The position numbers and the translations under genes were made by a program. Shown here piece by piece: positions 10,945-30,224 of a stretch of DNA of 64,000 bases; position 1 is the stretch's first letter; every line of letters begins with the position of its first letter. The notes below the pieces were generated by a model. It was not told the DNA's origin. It saw only the letters and a list, made by a program, of their open reading frames with translations, and searched no databases. Location: positions 1 to 64,000 of the forward strand of contig NZ_VTZU01000008.1 in NCBI RefSeq assembly GCF_008370685.1, read 5' to 3'. The DNA is from Aquimarina sp. RZ0 (GTDB lineage: Bacteria > Bacteroidota > Bacteroidia > Flavobacteriales > Flavobacteriaceae).

Positions 10945-12555
10945 TTATAATGCAGCAATTTGTTTATTGCGACTCCTGCATACTGTTTTAAGCTGGTCTA
11001 TAGTGTCTTCATTTAGTCCATTATTTTTCCAGGAAATATAGCCATCAGGACGAATTAAAAAATATTTTTCCTGATAGATTTTTTTTGCATCTTCATCTGT
11101 TACCAATCTAGCTTGTATAGGTAGTAACGCATCAGCAATCAATTTTTCTAAAGAAATCAATTCTTCCTTTGTGCCAAAACAAAGAATCACATAATTTTTC
11201 CCAAAAAGATCTATGATGGATTGATCTTTACCTATGAATACATGAGGAGCTCTGTATCCCACCATGGCAGATTTTTGCCAGTTATTAGGAGTGTTATTTT
11301 TATCTGCTGTATTTTTTTGTTTTTTATCTATAAGATCTGAGGAATACCCTAATCCCAAATGTACATCTGGAGCATCAAATTCTTTCCCTACCTGTTGTTT
11401 AATTAACACATCCGTGAACTCTTTTCTACATTTTCCCCCTTCAGAGGTATCCAGTGCGATAGCTGTAGGAACTTTTCTGTTCAAAGTTCTAGATAAATTT
11501 TCTTTAGACTTTTCTAAACTTTTTAAGGCAATAGGTCTTCTTTCATCGTGATATGAATCTAGAATCCGCTCATCGGCATTTCCTTTTAGTACTTCAGAAA
11601 TTTTCCACGCCAGGTTTTCAGTATCTGCCACACCGGTATTCATCCCAAATCCTCCTGAAGGAGAAATAACATGAGCAGCATCTCCAGCAAAGAATATTCT
11701 TTTATCTCTGTACTTATCTACAATTCTATGTGATAACTCCCAATGAACATTAGATTTAATATAAAAAGGGGTCTCATAATTTAAAGCCATATTAACTAAC
11801 TCATATGGAGTTTTGTCTTTTTGAGGTTTCACGGTAATACGATATAAAGACCTACCATCCATAGATCGAAGTGGATATCGTAAACCTGTAGGAGATACTA
11901 AGAAATGAACAAGCGCATTAGAAGTTCCAAGGAGGTTTTTTAGATAGGGAGCTTCAAAAAGAATATTCTGAAAGTGATTTGATTCATGAAACTGTTCAAA
12001 GGTAACATCACATTGTTCTCGTATACTACTTCTGGCACCATCGCAGGCAATTAGATATTTTCCCTGAATGGTACTTTGTGTACCTTCTTTAGTATTTTGT
12101 GTTTTTACTATAACTCCGGTATCAGACTGAGTAAAAGAGATCATTTTAGTGTTAAGTAAAAGAGATTTGGGTGCAGTATCAGCTATCTCTTTTAGTAAAA
12201 TAGGGCATAACCAGTGGTGAGGACACACTTGCTCCGTTTCTGGAGAAAAGGTAGGAAGAAGGCGGTCATTATAGGTTCCTCTTTTAATTCTTAGTAGTTC
12301 GTGACCCCCGAGAGAAGTTGTCCAGGATATATCCAACGGGTGATCTTCTGGCCATCCACTTTTTTGCATTTTACCACTGATACCAAGTTTACGAAATATT
12401 TCCATAGATCGTACACCAACCGTACCTACTCTTGGATAGGTGATAATACCATTTCCCTTATCAATTAGTATTGCATCCACTCCGTGGTATTGGAGCATCA
12501 GCATCATGGTTAACCCTACAGGTCCACCTCCTACAATAATAACATCTGTATTCAT
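10945..12555 (-). CDS. RebC/StaC-like FAD-dependent monooxygenase
   Basis: A 536-aa flavoprotein of the PHBH-fold class A monooxygenases. The FAD motifs are GGGPVG (9-14), CDGARSS (171-177) and the long GD motif FAGDAAHVISPSGGFG (289-304). A thioredoxin-like C-terminal domain covers about 400-536. Several stretches match what I remember of RebC, the flavoenzyme that works with P450 RebP in rebeccamycin synthesis: PRVGTVGVRSMEIF, SGWPEDHPLD, LRYPLRSMDGRSLYR and EFDAPDVHLG. Arg230 and Arg239 fall at the RebC positions I recall as substrate-contacting. It is on the same strand as the tryptophan-dimer cluster but 10.8 kb beyond it. It could instead be an unrelated aromatic hydroxylase; class confidence is high, RebC assignment moderate. 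Confidence 0.72.
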   Translation of the reverse strand: MNTDVIIVGGGPVGLTMMLMLQYHGVDAILIDKGNGIITYPRVGTVGVRSMEIFRKLGISGKMQKSGWPEDHPLDISWTTSLGGHELLRIKRGTYNDRLLPTFSPETEQVCPHHWLCPILLKEIADTAPKSLLLNTKMISFTQSDTGVIVKTQNTKEGTQSTIQGKYLIACDGARSSIREQCDVTFEQFHESNHFQNILFEAPYLKNLLGTSNALVHFLVSPTGLRYPLRSMDGRSLYRITVKPQKDKTPYELVNMALNYETPFYIKSNVHWELSHRIVDKYRDKRIFFAGDAAHVISPSGGFGMNTGVADTENLAWKISEVLKGNADERILDSYHDERRPIALKSLEKSKENLSRTLNRKVPTAIALDTSEGGKCRKEFTDVLIKQQVGKEFDAPDVHLGLGYSSDLIDKKQKNTADKNNTPNNWQKSAMVGYRAPHVFIGKDQSIIDLFGKNYVILCFGTKEELISLEKLIADALLPIQARLVTDEDAKKIYQEKYFLIRPDGYISWKNNGLNEDTIDQLKTVCRSRNKQIAAL

Positions 12556-23272: not shown

Positions 23273-23392
23273 GTATTGAAGAGTAGCCATATCATACAAT
23301 TAGATGGTGAAATAGAATCGAGAGACCTGATAAGTATTGATTACGTTTACAATGGAGAAGTACAAATAAAAACAGCAAATAGTATACTATAA
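23273..23392 (+). pseudogene. C-terminal remnant of an unknown gene
   Basis: A 39-residue frame with no start codon (SSHIIQLDGEIESRDLISID, then YVYNGEVQIKTANSIL, then stop). It looks like the end of a beta-rich protein. It begins next to MITE copy 4 and its last 6 bases overlap the P450 3' end. Joining the sequences on either side of the MITE does not restore a frame, so other rearrangement is implied. Confidence 0.35.
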
Positions 23393-24625
23393 AACTTGCC
23401 TGTCTATTTTTCTAAGCCATAATTCTCTAAACCCATGAAAGACAATGGAATTGCCCCATACAATAGCTTTATCTCTTTTATCATCTAATTCATAATTTAC
23501 TATAATAGTGTCCAAATGCCTGAAAGCTACTTTAGCTTCAAGTCTAGCTAATGCAGATCCTAAGCAATAATGAATACCTCCGCCAAAGGAAAGATGCATC
23601 TTTTTACGGTGTAAAACCAAAGTATCCGGGTTTTCAAAAATCTGAGAATCTCTGTTTGATGCTCCCAGCATTAATGCAATCTGGCTTCCTTTCTCTATCG
23701 TTTTTCCTGATATACTAAAAGTTTCTGTAACCCATCTGGTAACCATTTGTACAGGATTATCATATCGTAACAATTCTTCTGCTAATGCCTTATAATCATT
23801 AGATTCCTTTTTAAAGTCAACATAAAACTTTCGGTTACTTTGCAATGCATGTGTTCCTTTTGCAATTAAATTAATTGTTGTTTCAAAACCTGCATTCAAA
23901 ATATGAATGCAATTAGAAATAATTTCTTCTTTATTCAATTTATCATCAATACCGCTTTCTATCATTAAACTGATCAGATCATCTTCTAGATTATTTGCTT
24001 TTTTTGATATCACATCCGTGAAATATTCGATAAACTCCTGCATTGATTTTTCAGCTAATGCAAATACATCTTCATTTTTTCTATCTACAGAAAAGCTTGC
24101 TGCTAATAGCGCTAAAGACAACTCTTCAAATTTTGAACTATCTTCTGATGATATTCCCAAAATTTTGCAGATTACCCGAATAGGTAGTGGTAGTGCAAAT
24201 TCAGAAATAAATTCTATTTCATTTTTTTGTTCAATCTTTTCTAACAATTCTAAGGTAATACTCTCAATAATAGCTTCCATGTTCTTTAATGACCTACCGG
24301 AAAAAGCGTTATTTAGTACTGATCTTATTCTGGTATGTTCCGGTGGATCCTGAAAAACAAGCCATTTTGAAATGACACTTTTAAAACTTCTATATATAGG
24401 AGGTACTAACTCGATCTCCTCTCTAGGAGGGGTTCTAACAAAATTCTTAGACTTAAGCACCTGGTTAATATCCTTATAATTAAATAAATACCAAGTACCT
24501 TCTAGTTCTTTATGTAATGAAACTCCAAAATGAACCGGATCTGTATTTCTATACTGCTCATAATATTTATATGGATCTTCAATAACTGATGGTAACTTAG
24601 GGTTAAATAATGTATCTATTATCAT
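23387..24625 (-). CDS. StaP/RebP-like cytochrome P450
   Basis: A 412-aa soluble bacterial P450. The heme signature FGGGIHYCLG is at 347-356 (ligand Cys354), the I-helix AGFETT at 245-250 and the ExxR at E284-R287. Beyond the general motifs it shares stretches I remember from StaP, the P450 that couples and decarboxylates chromopyrrolic acid in staurosporine synthesis: WLVFQDPPEHT (88-98), PLPIRVICKILGI (146-158), RYDNPVQMVTRW (287-298) and a terminal IVFHGFREL. The start codon overlaps the vioE stop by 4 bases (ATGA), so translation is coupled. It is the last gene of the cluster. Expected role: oxidation of a bisindole intermediate. Confidence 0.85.
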   Translation of the reverse strand: MIIDTLFNPKLPSVIEDPYKYYEQYRNTDPVHFGVSLHKELEGTWYLFNYKDINQVLKSKNFVRTPPREEIELVPPIYRSFKSVISKWLVFQDPPEHTRIRSVLNNAFSGRSLKNMEAIIESITLELLEKIEQKNEIEFISEFALPLPIRVICKILGISSEDSSKFEELSLALLAASFSVDRKNEDVFALAEKSMQEFIEYFTDVISKKANNLEDDLISLMIESGIDDKLNKEEIISNCIHILNAGFETTINLIAKGTHALQSNRKFYVDFKKESNDYKALAEELLRYDNPVQMVTRWVTETFSISGKTIEKGSQIALMLGASNRDSQIFENPDTLVLHRKKMHLSFGGGIHYCLGSALARLEAKVAFRHLDTIIVNYELDDKRDKAIVWGNSIVFHGFRELWLRKIDRQVL

Positions 24626-25152
24626 TTTCTTAATTTAAATATCGTTTCTTGAATTTCTCCTATCAGAGGAGATATGAATTTCTTAACATGAGTTTGCTCA
24701 TTCTTTTTTAATTCCATTTTTAAAGGAACGTGGGTTACTGAAGATATATACAATTTTTTATCCTGAGATTCGGATTCCCATATATCCACGCTTTGCTCTT
24801 CTATTTCTGTTTGACCTATATGACTAGCATTCCATAAAGACAATACATTTTGGGGTAATGGATGTTTCCCTTCATAAACATGGTTTTCTAAATTCTCTAC
24901 AAGTTTGTCTGGATAAATATTGATTGTCTTTTTCTGTTTTTTTTTCTCTGCTTGAACACCTATTTCAGAAAGCCATAATTTATAACCTGTTGTTTTGACA
25001 TCCCACGGGTTTGATAATCCATCAATACGGTATAATCCTTTGTCATAATCAAACCAAGCCATCCCATTAGAAATAAAATTTTCTGGCATCATAGGTTTCC
25101 ATAAACTAATATAAGCAGCTTGCCAAGTATCTGGCAATTGAGGTAAATTCAT
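24622..25152 (-). CDS. vioE: VioE homologue (violacein-type indole-shift enzyme)
   Basis: A 176-aa soluble protein aligning with Chromobacterium VioE (191 aa) along its N-terminal half: LPDTWQAAYISLWKPMMPE, AWFDYDKGLYRIDGL, SNPW, then TGYKLWLSEIG. VioE catalyses the 1,2-shift of an indole ring that turns the VioB imine dimer toward protodeoxyviolaceinic acid instead of chromopyrrolic acid. Tyr14, Ser16, Asn48 and Glu63 match VioE Tyr17, Ser19, Asn51 and Glu66. Phe50 of VioE is Ser47 here, and the C-terminal Arg172 site appears to be Lys. It overlaps the P450 gene by 4 bases. The 321-base gap upstream suggests its own promoter. Confidence 0.88.
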   Translation of the reverse strand: MNLPQLPDTWQAAYISLWKPMMPENFISNGMAWFDYDKGLYRIDGLSNPWDVKTTGYKLWLSEIGVQAEKKKQKKTINIYPDKLVENLENHVYEGKHPLPQNVLSLWNASHIGQTEIEEQSVDIWESESQDKKLYISSVTHVPLKMELKKNEQTHVKKFISPLIGEIQETIFKLRK

Positions 25153-25473
25153 AATTTTAAGACAGTTTGTTTTTTTAAAGTAAATACCATTTTCAGAAGA
25201 AGATATTCGATACTAAAATCATTAGTTTTTCTCCAAATTTCAAAATAAAACGAATAGATATCCTTGCTATCTCTACTTCTTCTTTTCATTGTAATCTGAA
25301 TAATTTATATCCATTTGAGTTTGCTTATAACAAAATATCCTGTAAAAAGAGGTAGTTTTATTGAGTAAACCCATGGTAGAAACGGTATCTAGTCCTTTTA
25401 TTAATAATAGCATTAATTTGTTATCTTACGTTGGTGTCCATATGATTTTTTTCTTTTCTTAATACACAACAGC
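25153..25473. promoter_or_regulatory. Gap inside the cluster, probable vioE-P450 promoter
   Basis: This 321-base non-coding stretch between the vioB C-terminal gene and vioE is unusually long for an operon and probably holds a promoter for vioE and the P450. No exact TAnnTTTG motif was found on the minus strand. A 28-codon plus-strand frame inside it is not credible. Confidence 0.35.
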
Positions 25474-26724
25474 TTATTCTAAAGTCCTTGTATACTCAAC
25501 AAAATATTCCAGTAGTTCTACAACAGAAGGTGGTAAAATTTCTAATCTAACTGCACGGGTGTGTAGCTCCTTGAACTTAGCACTCATTTGCGCTAAAGCT
25601 TTGTCGTGATCAGTAATAAATATTATAGGTTTGGGCAATTCAAAAGAAGGACCTGCTGTATACTTTTCTATACCCGATTCAATGTTCATTATAAATATCC
25701 CCAAATACCGCATAACCCCAGACATAATATCTATGGATGCATTCATTAAATAAGATCTTCTGAGTGTTTCTGTCGGGCGTAATCCAAAATGTTGAGTCAT
25801 CATTTGCATACTAATACCAAAACATTCATTAAAGATATACATCGCTTCTTTTGCTACCTCATTTGTAACTTTTATGGTACCGATTTCGCCATGAACAGAA
25901 GGGTTTTTAAGACAGGGATACATTAAAGGTGTCTCGTGATTCTCTAAATATTCTTTTATTTTCCTAAATTTATTAAAATGAGATTCTTCCAGACTTTTAT
26001 CATCCGTAGGAACGCCTTCACCTTGTTCTGCAATAAGGTCTATTGCAAAAATTGCAGATTGTACATCATCTACCCTACATTGATAACTAGGAAATAAGGT
26101 ATTTGTTTTTTCATTTAAGAAAAGATGATGTTCTCCTCCCGTTTTTCCTTTTTCGACAGAAATAAATTCTGGAAACTTGATAAAAGCGTTTTTTATTTTT
26201 CGGTATAAATCACTCACACTTGTATATGCCAAGTCTGTACCGGGTTGAGGTTGGTTTTTACCTTCTGTCACAAAAGTATGTGGTGATTCCAGGTGCATAA
26301 ATCTTTCGATACTATTCTTAGAAAATGGTTCTAAAGCCATTTCCAGACCTACCGGGTAAAATTTAGACACTTTAGAATAGCTGGGAGAGCTTACATAAAA
26401 CGTTCCCCCAATGGCCATTAATAAATTGTTTGCCATAAGAAAATGTATCATTTCTTCCTTGGCAATACCCAAGATCAATCCTCTTGCTCCTTGATCCATT
26501 CGCTCCTCTCCATCTCCACACATAAAAGAAAGTTGCTCCTCACTCCACAACCCTCTTTTTACATATTCTTTTCCTGTTACCAAATTAGGTACAGAATACG
26601 CTGCATATATGTATTGTACCATCAGGGTCATCTCTAATTCTACTGCTTCTTTTAAATAGCAAATGAGTTCTTCTCTCGTGGTTATTTCAGTTGTTGCAGT
26701 AATCTGGGTTTCTGTAACACTCAT
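25474..26724 (-). CDS. vioB: VioB/RebD C-terminal ferritin-like domain protein
   Basis: A 416-aa protein corresponding to the C-terminal, ferritin-like part of VioB/RebD/StaD (iminophenylpyruvate dimer synthase domain). Matching stretches include LKEAVELEMTLMVQYIYAAY (24-43), the iron-type EEMIHFLMANNLLMAIGG (90-107), KTGGEHHLFLNEKTN and RRSYLMNASIDIMSG. In known pathways this is one domain of a polypeptide of about 1000 residues that oxidatively dimerises two indole-pyruvate imines. Here it is a separate gene whose ATG overlaps the upstream stop by 4 bases. The two halves (676 plus 416 residues) should assemble into one enzyme. Confidence 0.9.
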   Translation of the reverse strand: MSVTETQITATTEITTREELICYLKEAVELEMTLMVQYIYAAYSVPNLVTGKEYVKRGLWSEEQLSFMCGDGEERMDQGARGLILGIAKEEMIHFLMANNLLMAIGGTFYVSSPSYSKVSKFYPVGLEMALEPFSKNSIERFMHLESPHTFVTEGKNQPQPGTDLAYTSVSDLYRKIKNAFIKFPEFISVEKGKTGGEHHLFLNEKTNTLFPSYQCRVDDVQSAIFAIDLIAEQGEGVPTDDKSLEESHFNKFRKIKEYLENHETPLMYPCLKNPSVHGEIGTIKVTNEVAKEAMYIFNECFGISMQMMTQHFGLRPTETLRRSYLMNASIDIMSGVMRYLGIFIMNIESGIEKYTAGPSFELPKPIIFITDHDKALAQMSAKFKELHTRAVRLEILPPSVVELLEYFVEYTRTLE

Positions 26725-28751
26725 CTCGTTTCTTTTTTGGGTACATATCCTATCGCCGATACGTGTGTCAGGAATTCTTTAAATAGTAATGCTTTTGGGT
26801 ACGATAAATCCCTAGTAGGCGGCATATAATAGGATTTTGATTTATTCATTGGATCACACATCTGCCAGGATAATCTGGCATATGTTTTTGTCTTTGGCTT
26901 ATTGGCCAGGCTAAAAACTTCTCTATTCATAAAGGGAAATAGTAATTCATAAAAAGACAACACTTCTTTATACATAAAATCAAAACTCATTGAACCGGGA
27001 TCTTTATTAAAAAGATGCCAATCATCATTCATAACAACCGCATGTAGCATATTAGAATCAGGATATATTGATTGTAAACTCTCTATCGTATAAGCTTCAA
27101 AATCATCTTTTTTTAAAAGATTCGATATTTTTTCTTTCTCCTGATCGTTATGAATAAAGAATACCCGCAGAGAACCGCTGGATATTCCTCTTAGCGTAAT
27201 TGTTGCCTTACCATCAATATCGGTAGAAAAAACTATCTGATCAGAAAAAATAGTATGATCATCTTCTGTTGCCACAGATATGGATGCTTTTTTTATCGTA
27301 TCTAATAAAAAATCTGAATTATTAAAAGGATGAAAAAACGGATTGTATTGTTGTACGATCTGAATCTCTTCTATAGAACAAGGCTTTCCTCTCTTAAAAC
27401 TCCTGATTTCTATAGATTCATCAAAAAAGAGGTTATTCTTTTCTGAAGGAATTTCCAGATATATACTTGCCTGATCTGCCTGTATTATAATCGATTGCTC
27501 CATTAATACAAGATCAGATGTTCCTTGTGAACTTTCTACGGCAAAATACAAGTCGTTTTGTTCTATATGATGCCATTCTTCATCTGTAAATTCATTACAG
27601 ATAGGAATATCCAGAACTCCACAGCTTACTAAAAAATCTGGGGTAGAAAATGATTCTTTTGTGAGTTTTATAATCGGTTTATCTAATCCTTTAGAAAAAA
27701 GGTTCAGATTTTCTTCTATACAAACCACTCCTACCTCATGCAAAGGACCATTAATGGCATGTAGACTTCTCTTTGAAAAAGGAAAACCAATAATAGCATT
27801 GAGCGACACATGATCTTTTTTTATTTTTGCACTTAGCATCCCCAAATTCTTACACCATTGATTTTGTAAATTTTTATAATTTGGCACAAATACTCTACCA
27901 GCCGGATATGTTGCCATCTCTGTAGAAGGATTCCAGATACCAATAGTACCGTAGAGTGAGTAAAATGCAGGTGTATCAGGTGCTACAGGATTTGATGCAT
28001 TGCATAATGTAAACTGAACAACGATCCCTTGTGCTTCTTGTTTATTCTTCAGGATTTCTTTGAACAAATGTGTACAAGTGGCATTAGATTGTTCATCTAA
28101 TTCAATTATGTCTTTTTCTGAAATTACAAATTGGTATACGGCAGCTCTTCCGATCTCATCATTATTCCAATGTTCCGGAAGATCCTTATAATGCATTGTT
28201 TTATTCCATCTGGCATGTTGAACTTGATTAATATTGCCATTAATATAATATCCGGATGAAATATCAGTAAGCCTTTCACCTACCGTAAATTGTCCTCCAA
28301 AAATTTGTCTCGTACTTGCATCTGTTGGATCCAGTTTAACCACTTTGGGCTGATTAAAACTTGTTTGCAGGTATTCATTATAATGCCCCCAAAGGCTTAC
28401 TGATTCACCTATCAGTACTCCCTGAGTAATGGTTTCCTGAGGAGACAGTTGATAACTTGTTACCTTTGCATCCCATAAAACGCGACTGTTGCCTTCATAA
28501 TCTCTACCAGCCGTAGGATTAAAATTTCCTTCTTTTGATAATTTCCCATCAGTATCAAATCGATCTCCTATGGAGGTGAAGTACTTATAAAACTCCTCTG
28601 GGTTGGTATTAAAATCAATTAACCTACCCTTTTCATCATAAATTTGATTTTTTGTTAGGTCTATATTCCCTGAAAAATTATTATTCCCCGTTGGTTCATG
28701 TAAAGAGCAAATACCCGAAAAGTGAATACGGGGAAAGTCTAAAACTGACAT
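26721..28751 (-). CDS. vioB: VioB/RebD N-terminal part, separate gene
   Basis: A 676-aa protein matching the N-terminal two-thirds of VioB. It opens with LDFPRIHFSGICSLHEPTGN, close to the VioB opening, and shares SVSLWGHYNEYLQTSFNQP, RQIFGGQFTVG and, near 622-650, KTYARLSWQMCDPMNKSKSY followed by YMPPTRDLS. In VioB that last stretch leads straight into the ferritin-like domain. Here the frame stops at TGA in an ATGA junction and the next gene carries on. A single-base slip would fuse them to 1092 residues, so either true gene fission or an error or frameshift is possible. It starts 21 bases after the oxidase gene. Confidence 0.9.
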   Translation of the reverse strand: MSVLDFPRIHFSGICSLHEPTGNNNFSGNIDLTKNQIYDEKGRLIDFNTNPEEFYKYFTSIGDRFDTDGKLSKEGNFNPTAGRDYEGNSRVLWDAKVTSYQLSPQETITQGVLIGESVSLWGHYNEYLQTSFNQPKVVKLDPTDASTRQIFGGQFTVGERLTDISSGYYINGNINQVQHARWNKTMHYKDLPEHWNNDEIGRAAVYQFVISEKDIIELDEQSNATCTHLFKEILKNKQEAQGIVVQFTLCNASNPVAPDTPAFYSLYGTIGIWNPSTEMATYPAGRVFVPNYKNLQNQWCKNLGMLSAKIKKDHVSLNAIIGFPFSKRSLHAINGPLHEVGVVCIEENLNLFSKGLDKPIIKLTKESFSTPDFLVSCGVLDIPICNEFTDEEWHHIEQNDLYFAVESSQGTSDLVLMEQSIIIQADQASIYLEIPSEKNNLFFDESIEIRSFKRGKPCSIEEIQIVQQYNPFFHPFNNSDFLLDTIKKASISVATEDDHTIFSDQIVFSTDIDGKATITLRGISSGSLRVFFIHNDQEKEKISNLLKKDDFEAYTIESLQSIYPDSNMLHAVVMNDDWHLFNKDPGSMSFDFMYKEVLSFYELLFPFMNREVFSLANKPKTKTYARLSWQMCDPMNKSKSYYMPPTRDLSYPKALLFKEFLTHVSAIGYVPKKETR

Positions 28752-28772
28752 ATCTAAAAACTAAATTATAAT

Positions 28773-30224
28773 TTAAACTGCTACCTTTGCCAAATCTTTT
28801 TTGGTAATAGCCTCTATTTGTTCTAAAGAAGATCTGATCGCTCCTTCTATCCAGGCTTGTTTTTCTGAGCAGTGTTCACCTGCAAAAAACAAATTCCCTT
28901 CTGGTTTAATGATATCTTCATACAATTGATCTATAGGATCTCCTAATTCCTGATCATTTTCTCCGTTCCACATAACACTGCATCCCCCTAATGTCCATTT
29001 ATGATCCTCCCAGGAAATACTTTCTGTTTTTAATACCATATTATTTTCTTTTATTTCGGGATGAAACCTTCCTATCAATTCTTTTACCTCATTGAGCCTA
29101 TCTTGTTTGCGCATCGATGCGATTTCTTTAGAATCTCCACCAATTGCATATGATCCTAACAAAACTCCTTCTTTGGTTTTACTTTCATTATCCGGGTAAT
29201 ACACCTGCCTTAATTTATTATCTGTGATAGAAGCGCCACTTTTTATTTTATGTTTTTCATTTTCCCAAAATCGTTCTTTACACAAAAACAATACCTTAGA
29301 GGCATCAGCATACTTCAAATCATTAATTGCTCTAAGTTTTGAATCAGAAAAACCGGATAACTTCAAATTTTTAAGCACACTATATGGTATAGTACAGATA
29401 GTTTCAGAACTTATAATAGTATCACCATCATTAAATTCTATATGAACCTCATCTCCTAAAACTGAAATACCGCTCACTGGTTTATTGAGATGTATTTCTT
29501 CTTTTAAAAATTGTGCCAATGCTTCAGGAAATATACTCATCCCTCCTTCTAATCTGTACAATTCTTTTTTTGTTTCTAAAATAATATCTCTTAAAAATAA
29601 TTGTAGTGAAGGGTTTACCTTGTCTAGAAATTTATCTGCGTGCTTCAATATATTTCTAAATGTAACTTCTTCTTCATCATACTTAATTTCATTATTACAA
29701 AATAATGTATCTATTTCTTGTGCAAGCCCGTTATAAAGGTCTCTGGTAAAAAGTTCTCTGATTTCTACCGGAGAAATGGCTTCGATCAAAATTTTGAGCC
29801 CGGTAATATATTTTCTTGCTGTCTCTGATTTTAAATTCTGATCAAACCTGTTTAGGTAACATAAACTTAATTCTTTGATTACTTTATCGATCCTGTATAT
29901 TTTATTATTCAGATCTGCATAACAATTATCTTCATTAAAAACTGTCTTAAACCTCCTGAGCTTATTGCAAAGCCCTAATTCTTTAATATAATGAAGTACT
30001 AACTCGTGGTCATCAGGAATTCTCATTGCTCCTAGTTCCCCATATAAGTCTGGATTAAAATATTTAGTAAAAACCCTTCCTCCTATCCTGTCACTCGCTT
30101 CATAAATTTTAACTGTATACCCTTTTTTCTTTAACTCGTACCCTGCAACTAAACCAGCTATTCCTGCTCCAAGAATAATGATTTCCTTTTGTTCTTTAAA
30201 AATGTTTTCACTTACCATTGCCAT
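28773..30224 (-). CDS. RebO/StaO/VioA-type tryptophan oxidase
   Basis: A 483-aa flavin amine oxidase. The dinucleotide-binding motif GAGIAG is at 19-24 followed by YEASDRIGGR (41-50). The substrate-domain motif ELGAMRIPDDHELVLHYI is near 63-80, and the C-terminal FAD motif FFAGEHCSEKQAWIEGAIRS is near 447-466. RebO, StaO and VioA oxidise tryptophan (or 7-chlorotryptophan) to the indole-3-pyruvate imine, supplying the dimer synthase. This protein is longer than VioA (about 418 aa) and reads more like RebO. It is first in the cluster, so it defines the operon start. A general L-amino-acid oxidase is the alternative, but the context argues for tryptophan. Confidence 0.82.
   Translation of the reverse strand: MAMVSENIFKEQKEIIILGAGIAGLVAGYELKKKGYTVKIYEASDRIGGRVFTKYFNPDLYGELGAMRIPDDHELVLHYIKELGLCNKLRRFKTVFNEDNCYADLNNKIYRIDKVIKELSLCYLNRFDQNLKSETARKYITGLKILIEAISPVEIRELFTRDLYNGLAQEIDTLFCNNEIKYDEEEVTFRNILKHADKFLDKVNPSLQLFLRDIILETKKELYRLEGGMSIFPEALAQFLKEEIHLNKPVSGISVLGDEVHIEFNDGDTIISSETICTIPYSVLKNLKLSGFSDSKLRAINDLKYADASKVLFLCKERFWENEKHKIKSGASITDNKLRQVYYPDNESKTKEGVLLGSYAIGGDSKEIASMRKQDRLNEVKELIGRFHPEIKENNMVLKTESISWEDHKWTLGGCSVMWNGENDQELGDPIDQLYEDIIKPEGNLFFAGEHCSEKQAWIEGAIRSSLEQIEAITKKDLAKVAV

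Follow-up and report, generated by a model that had tools for sequence, protein, structure and literature searches.

Violacein and the staurosporine/rebeccamycin family of bacterial bisindoles part at an imine dimer; which direction is taken is held to depend on whether VioE is present. According to PMC5577590 and PMC10851217, VioE rearranges this dimer, giving protodeoxyviolaceinic acid, and, without VioE, the dimer closes spontaneously to chromopyrrolic acid. A pathway having VioE together with a complete indolocarbazole set would break this rule. The 64,000-nucleotide stretch of Aquimarina sp. RZ0 DNA analysed here (contig NZ_VTZU01000008.1, positions 1 to 64,000; hereafter, the window) carries VioE and a homologue of each of the four indolocarbazole core genes (RebO, RebD, RebP, and RebC), and raises the question whether its VioE and its StaP/RebP-clade cytochrome P450 (P450) compete for the same dimer or act in series. 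An initial annotation had allowed for either; two natural VioE-P450 fusions favour action in series and speak against competition. On balance we lean towards the reading that a RebO-type oxidase, a split synthase, VioE, P450, and a RebC-type enzyme convert two tryptophans to a bisindole, with VioE and P450 likely acting sequentially.

VioE and P450 as overlapping genes and as fused proteins

A protein search with the window P450 returned, as nearest relatives after itself, two proteins that carry VioE and P450 in a single chain: P0111, of Pseudoalteromonas luteoviolacea (585 amino acids, aa), and P0112 (587 aa), each 58% identical to the window P450. In the window itself, the vioE and P450 genes overlap by 4 base pairs (bp). 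Trees place the P450s of the window and of both fusions in one clade (100/100) and set the VioEs of the window and of both fusions apart from 44 other VioEs (100/100; midpoint root), the exact sister of this VioE clade being unsure because of the midpoint root and long branches. Enzyme fusion often joins consecutive steps. The fusion of VioE with P450 in two proteins, together with the overlap of their genes in the window, leads us to favour serial action. The features concerned are as follows, first in the window and then at the locus of P. luteoviolacea MMG020 that encodes P0111.

28773..30224, minus strand: RebO-type flavin amino-acid oxidase, 483 aa (Pfam Amino_oxidase, 211 bits)
26721..28751, minus strand: VioB/RebD synthase, N-terminal part (VioB-N), 676 aa (NCBIfam TIGR04492, 404 bits)
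25474..26724, minus strand: VioB/RebD synthase, C-terminal ferritin-like part (VioB-C), 416 aa (TIGR04492, 369 bits)
24622..25152, minus strand: VioE-family protein, 176 aa, of the divergent clade common to the two VioE-P450 fusions
23387..24625, minus strand: StaP/RebP-clade cytochrome P450, 412 aa (best PDB chain StaP, 235.7 bits)
10945..12555, minus strand: RebC/StaC-type flavin monooxygenase, 536 aa (RebC 2r0c, 432.6 bits)
L078:12181-13938 (MMG020, G749:C74), divergent from the RebC homologue: VioE-P450 fusion P0111
L078:10285-11907, adjoining the fusion: RebC homologue of MMG020 (whole locus, L078:10285-13938)

The five-gene minus-strand set of the initial annotation (oxidase, two-gene VioB/RebD synthase, VioE, and P450) is present in full. 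Its interpretation as a hybrid of two pathways holds in part: VioE and a StaP/RebP-clade P450 are both real, and a RebC homologue must be added. The RebC homologue lies on the same strand as the operon, 10.8 kilobases (kb) from the P450 gene and outside the stretch initially annotated. It scores 432.6 bits against RebC 2r0c, as compared to 149.7 bits against the next, non-RebC, solved flavoenzyme. The window and MMG020 proteins match one another best, in both directions, for VioE (175 bits, 47%), for P450 (493 bits, 58%), and for RebC (606 bits, 53% by blastp); the panel comprised 27 proteins (actinobacterial, cyanobacterial, violacein, window, and MMG020), with P0112 left out. Because of these mutual best matches, and because the two loci have VioE and P450 clades in common, we tie the remote RebC homologue to the operon. 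When the Aquimarina genome was searched with the MMG020 RebC homologue, this gene was the sole close match (54% identity, 651 bits), and the only other one scored 21 bits; the crude chance that a single-copy RebC would fall so near the operon is ~0.3%.

In the mechanism that we favour, the oxidase and synthase would make the indolepyruvate imine dimer; the VioE-like protein would capture the dimer ahead of spontaneous collapse to chromopyrrolic acid and rearrange it, the likely product being protodeoxyviolaceinic acid or a near relative of that acid; the P450 would take the VioE product directly and oxidise its indoles, in the place that VioC and VioD hold in violacein formation; and the RebC-like enzyme would determine how far the pyrrole ring is oxidised in the end. 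The module of MMG020 would be supplied with imine dimer by the violacein cluster of the same genome. The final product would be a rearranged or re-oxidised bisindole, the exact compound not being predicted with confidence. We also propose, tentatively, that the VioE-P450-RebC module is conserved and constitutes a third bacterial bisindole branch, in which a rearranged dimer would pass to an aryl-coupling P450 and yield a scaffold distinct from both violacein and the indolo[2,3-a]carbazoles. The fused enzyme offers a route to an answer, in that one purified protein could show whether a StaP-type P450 accepts the VioE product. If it does, the pathway would lead to a bisindole scaffold that is new yet akin to two bioactive classes already studied in depth, and would provide a tool for combining them.

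Two further observations concern the neighbourhood of the MMG020 fusion. The 3' end of the fusion gene overlaps a short open reading frame (ORF) on the opposite strand that resembles IS30 transposases weakly (35.6 bits, cut-off 80), and L078:3400-14336 may be a mobile unit. A gene for a TetR-like regulator and an RND efflux pair lie upstream of the fusion.

Enzyme families at the locus

The window VioE belongs to the Pfam VioE family (PF18234; 103.8 bits, cut-off 25) and fits the VioE fold. The phylogenetic test proposed with the initial annotation gives a divided answer for VioE: the protein groups outside the 44 other VioEs, which speaks in part against that annotation, but it retains the family and the fold. 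It still has Y17, S19, N51, and E66 (numbered as in C. violaceum) but has lost the RDF motif: in the VioEs of the window and of both fusions, Lys replaces R172, and Lys or Thr replaces D173, as compared to Arg172/Asp173 in 19/19 other aligned VioEs. Y20 is changed to Leu/Gln in the window and fusion VioEs, and F50 to Ser in the window VioE and P0111. We take Y17, S19, N51, E66, and R172 to be active-site residues; their importance is reportedly established in two VioE structure papers of 2008. When a large protein set was searched with the window VioE alone, it matched itself only, proteins of fusion length falling outside the length limits of that search; a two-sequence profile search returned 109 VioE proteins. 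Among VioEs, six (P0102, P0103, P0104, P0107, P0108, and P0109) form a second divergent clade, in which Thr replaces Ser19.

StaP/RebP, cyanobacterial, and window/fusion P450s group together against 14 generic P450s with 100/99 (37 rows vs. 14), which places the window P450 where the initial annotation had put it. The position of the window/fusion P450s relative to the cyanobacterial and actinobacterial P450s is left undecided by the tree (approximately unbiased test p 0.334 and 0.241). Six rows were left out of this tree (P0136, P0153, P0161, P0187, P0195, and one mistranslated row of Calothrix CSU_2_0); an earlier quick tree with six extra rows, one of them mistranslated and several on long branches, had placed the clade of the window P450 closer to the generic P450s (90). 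By sequence, the best PDB chain is StaP; by structure comparison, CalO2 outranks StaP by Z score (48.2 vs. 46.7), and StaP is not singled out. The His at StaP position 250, to which we assign a catalytic role, is kept in the window P450. It is present in 32/32 StaP-clade rows and in 4/84 other matches (the motif not being found in 4/120), and in the four non-clade P450s that have it the motif is the same as in RebP. A candidate loss of His250 through the His-to-Phe/Tyr change in AGHETT was rejected: numbering from 2z3t, borne out by the residue numbers given in that entry, assigns that change to position 256 and leaves 250 intact. At 15 positions that are fixed in ≥95% of 34 other StaP-clade P450s, all three VioE-linked P450s differ (including R176E, Q183L, R189V, T247N, and H256F/Y), and, because of these changes, the pocket of the window P450 may be altered. 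A plasmid-borne P450 match of a Nostoc cyanobiont proved to belong to a peptide/polyketide cluster and to be unrelated.

Upstream in the proposed sequence, the oxidase scores 348 bits against cyanobacterial RebO, 278 bits against RebO of pBCI2-2, and 37.7 bits against VioA, and reaches 51.3 bits against NCBIfam VioA, the cut-off of which is 600. Of the initial assignment as "RebO/VioA-type", the RebO part therefore stands and the VioA part falls. The enzyme is predicted, from sequence, to turn L-tryptophan into indolepyruvate imine. The synthase is encoded in two parts by genes that overlap by 4 bp: VioB-N matches TIGR04492 positions 1-441 and 485-588, VioB-C matches positions 592-988, and the split point falls in a variable linker. 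Across both parts, 43 of the 52 polar or aromatic residues that are invariant in 12 relatives are kept. VioB-N scores 338 bits against RebD and 311 bits against VioB; in a VioB tree of 10 of the 15 chosen loci (the five without an ORF under the filter being left out), the window sequence is on a long branch and its placement is unsure.

The RebC homologue shows a mixed RebC/StaC pattern. It has Arg at RebC chain positions 66 and 259 (presumably residues 46 and 239 once the tag offset is taken into account), as in RebC, and it has Val at 236 and Ser at 251, matching the changed chain 4eip, which we take to be RebC with StaC residues.

The intergenic DNA gave negative results of two kinds. A tblastn search of the panel against the four intergenic stretches found no remnant of vestigial genes (best E 0.19), and the strict Bacteroidetes promoter pattern had no minus-strand match in the same four stretches.

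Distribution of VioE with and without VioC and VioD

VioE was found in 1/299 genomes of the family, 1/66 of the genus, and 1/395 of the phylum, in each case the window's own; VioB in 1/66 genus genomes, six others having weak matches only (≤38 bits); and the RebC homologue in 1/66 genus genomes (E 1e-40). In the window genome, the best VioC match was 156.8 bits, with 30% identity and on another contig, as compared to 629-646 bits for true VioC in three positive genomes, and VioD had no match at 1e-8.

To survey VioE loci more widely, one genome per species was scanned for 84,980 species with the patterns RIDGLFNP and SG[YNF][CV]WFDY. At least 80 stretches matched, and at least 54 VioE loci were obtained; the 54 are ordinary VioEs, since neither pattern occurs in the window VioE or in that of the MMG020 fusion. 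Loci were examined up to 10 kb on each side, some being shortened by contig ends. Both VioC and VioD exceed 300 bits in 48 of the 54 listed loci; the six exceptions are a Myxococcus (L016) and a Fluviispira (L030) with VioC only, a Pleurocapsa locus at a contig end (L045) with VioD only, and three Calothrix with neither. Within the same ≤10 kb on each side, none of the 54 listed loci matches the window P450 (E 1e-4), and none matches RebC above 102 bits.

The window P450 was also used to search 39 VioE genomes (E 1e-30), and StaP-like P450s (280-357 bits) turned up in four of them; all four are cyanobacteria, of six cyanobacteria searched, and Myxococcus matches do not exceed 163 bits. In Calothrix PCC 7103, NIES-4101, and CSU_2_0, VioE adjoins a RebO-type oxidase, the P450 is near RebC elsewhere in the genome, and VioB/RebD is present; VioC matches are ≤143 bits and VioD has none, as compared to 629-646 bits (three genomes) and 492-505 bits (four genomes) elsewhere. 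Eight genomes were searched whole for VioC and VioD. In four of them (the three Calothrix and the window's) neither was found, and each of these four carries RebC and a StaP-like P450; the four that bear VioD include two with a StaP-like P450 (Anabaena azotica and MMG020). The hypergeometric value for P450 in VioE genomes without VioC/VioD, 0.0004, treats three related Calothrix as independent, and we do not rely on it. The co-occurrence of VioE with a CYP245-type P450, which the initial annotation had proposed to look for, is not unique to the window: MMG020 and the three Calothrix have it in other arrangements.

In Pseudoalteromonas, the fusion is present in 1/15 VioE genomes. Among 108 genomes of the genus, one has the fusion, and in a second (G776) the P450 that matched is unrelated; this latter P450 (36%) adjoins a 3037-residue ORF, with no VioE, VioB, or RebC in the 20 kb around it, and was rejected.

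Side observations from the cyanobacterial genomes include a glutathione S-transferase-like gene between RebC and P450 in the three Calothrix loci and a similar ORF adjoining the P450 in A. azotica (L093-L096 taken together; Pfam-checked for L095). A. azotica (L093, L021) has two clusters that lie apart, one of violacein type, with VioC and VioD, and one with RebO, RebD, RebC, and P450. In NIES-4101, the only VioB/RebD found is at G886:C1:5877216-5882528, beside a second P450 that is 28% identical to the window's and away from that genome's VioE and RebC.

Alternative readings and comparison with known systems

Several points weigh against consecutive action of VioE and P450. The window VioE fails the NCBIfam VioE equivalog (99.9 bits, cut-off 177), and the reaction of its clade may differ from that of violacein VioE, since R172/D173 are lost and Y20 is changed to L/Q. 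An AT-rich gap of 321 bp (25153-25473) divides the operon, with VioB-C on one side and VioE on the other, and suggests two transcription units. Some 10.8 kb of other genes part RebC from the operon; they encode a secreted protein, a hydrolase/OsmC protein, a DUF547 protein, and products without an assigned family. The link in series comes from the window/MMG020/P0112 clade and not from Calothrix, because the Calothrix genes are scattered. Chromopyrrolic acid and the compounds made from it are the usual substrates of StaP and RebC, and 66 positions are retained in the window P450 of the 85 fixed in ≥95% of 34 other StaP-clade P450s; for both reasons, a plain indolocarbazole product is possible.

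The last two points define the main rival to serial action, namely an ordinary indolocarbazole pathway in which RebO, RebD, the StaP-like P450, and RebC would give an arcyriaflavin/K252c-type aglycone and an altered, repurposed VioE, having given up the indole shift, would speed the formation of chromopyrrolic acid or channel it to the P450. The retention of His250 in the P450, the loss of R172/D173 from VioE, and the Arg at RebC chain positions 66 and 259 fit this reading, as does the presence of homologues of all four genes that, according to PMC3158105, are common to indolopyrrolocarbazole clusters. However, in PMC10851217 the dimer gives chromopyrrolic acid spontaneously and without VioE; VioE retains E66, N51, S19, and Y17; and the 15 clade-fixed positions changed in all three VioE-linked P450s include R176E, Q183L, R189V, and H256F/Y. 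We judge an ordinary indolocarbazole pathway unlikely, but a serious contender.

The branch point put forward in the initial annotation, in which VioE and P450 would divide the dimer pool and yield parallel protodeoxyviolaceinate-type and indolocarbazole-type products, is in our estimation improbable. Both enzyme families are in the window, and A. azotica does carry both routes, but it does so in two clusters at separate places, whereas the window has one oxidase, one synthase, and overlapping VioE and P450 genes. Fusing competitors, as P0111 and P0112 would, makes little sense, and VioC and VioD, needed to finish the violacein branch, were not found in the genome. A substrate other than tryptophan (e.g., tyrosine or phenylalanine), leading to diaryl-pyrrole products, is very improbable: the oxidase is just 33-40% identical to RebO proteins, and sequence does not reveal substrate specificity, but the MMG020 genome houses both the module and a violacein cluster, and we know of VioE, StaP-clade P450, and RebC homologues only in tryptophan bisindole routes.

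Consecutive action of VioE and P450 thus remains the reading that we favour, and the window can be set beside five known systems. It has the VioB and VioE families in common with violacein (vioABCDE) clusters, and differs in having no detected VioC or VioD in its genome and in having an oxidase that is not VioA-type. With plasmid pBCI2-2 of Pseudonocardia (L098), the cluster of which we take to be rebeccamycin-type, the record itself giving enzyme types only, it shares homologues of RebO (278 bits), RebD (338 + 305 bits for the two parts), RebP (261 bits), and RebC (422 bits); the pBCI2-2 cluster has no annotated VioE, and the window, for its part, encodes its RebD homologue in two parts and its RebC homologue 10.8 kb off. 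The three Calothrix resemble the window in having VioE beside a RebO-type oxidase, a StaP-like P450, RebC, and VioB/RebD, with no VioC or VioD found, and differ in that their genes are scattered and their P450s have His at StaP position 256; the PCC 7103 VioE (P0087), the only Calothrix VioE in the tree, groups with violacein-type VioEs.

The rebO, rebD, rebP, and rebC homologues are, according to PMC3158105, common to all characterised indolopyrrolocarbazole clusters, and the same paper, in the main text of which the words violacein and VioB do not occur, describes the cladoniamide and BE-54017 clusters as this rebODCP core plus extra enzymes that lead to a rearranged bisindole. The window likewise adds to the core; the added enzymes of cladoniamide and BE-54017 are, in contrast, flavin-dependent oxygenases and methyltransferases. 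By having VioE in the operon, the window departs from the rule, stated in PMC5577590, that indolocarbazole clusters have no VioE. Among the matches listed in the open-licence literature, no pathway with VioE and a StaP-type P450 is described, as the initial annotation had supposed.

The MMG020 locus differs from the window in that VioE and P450 are fused and in that the genome has a separate violacein cluster, with its sole VioB, VioC, and VioD. No match to the oxidase or VioB was found in the 34 kb around the fusion, and no dimer synthase stands beside the module because the one VioB of the genome sits in the violacein cluster. The source annotation of the fusion reads cytochrome P450 only. 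Like the window, the MMG020 locus combines a VioE and a P450 of the same clades with the best panel match of the window RebC.

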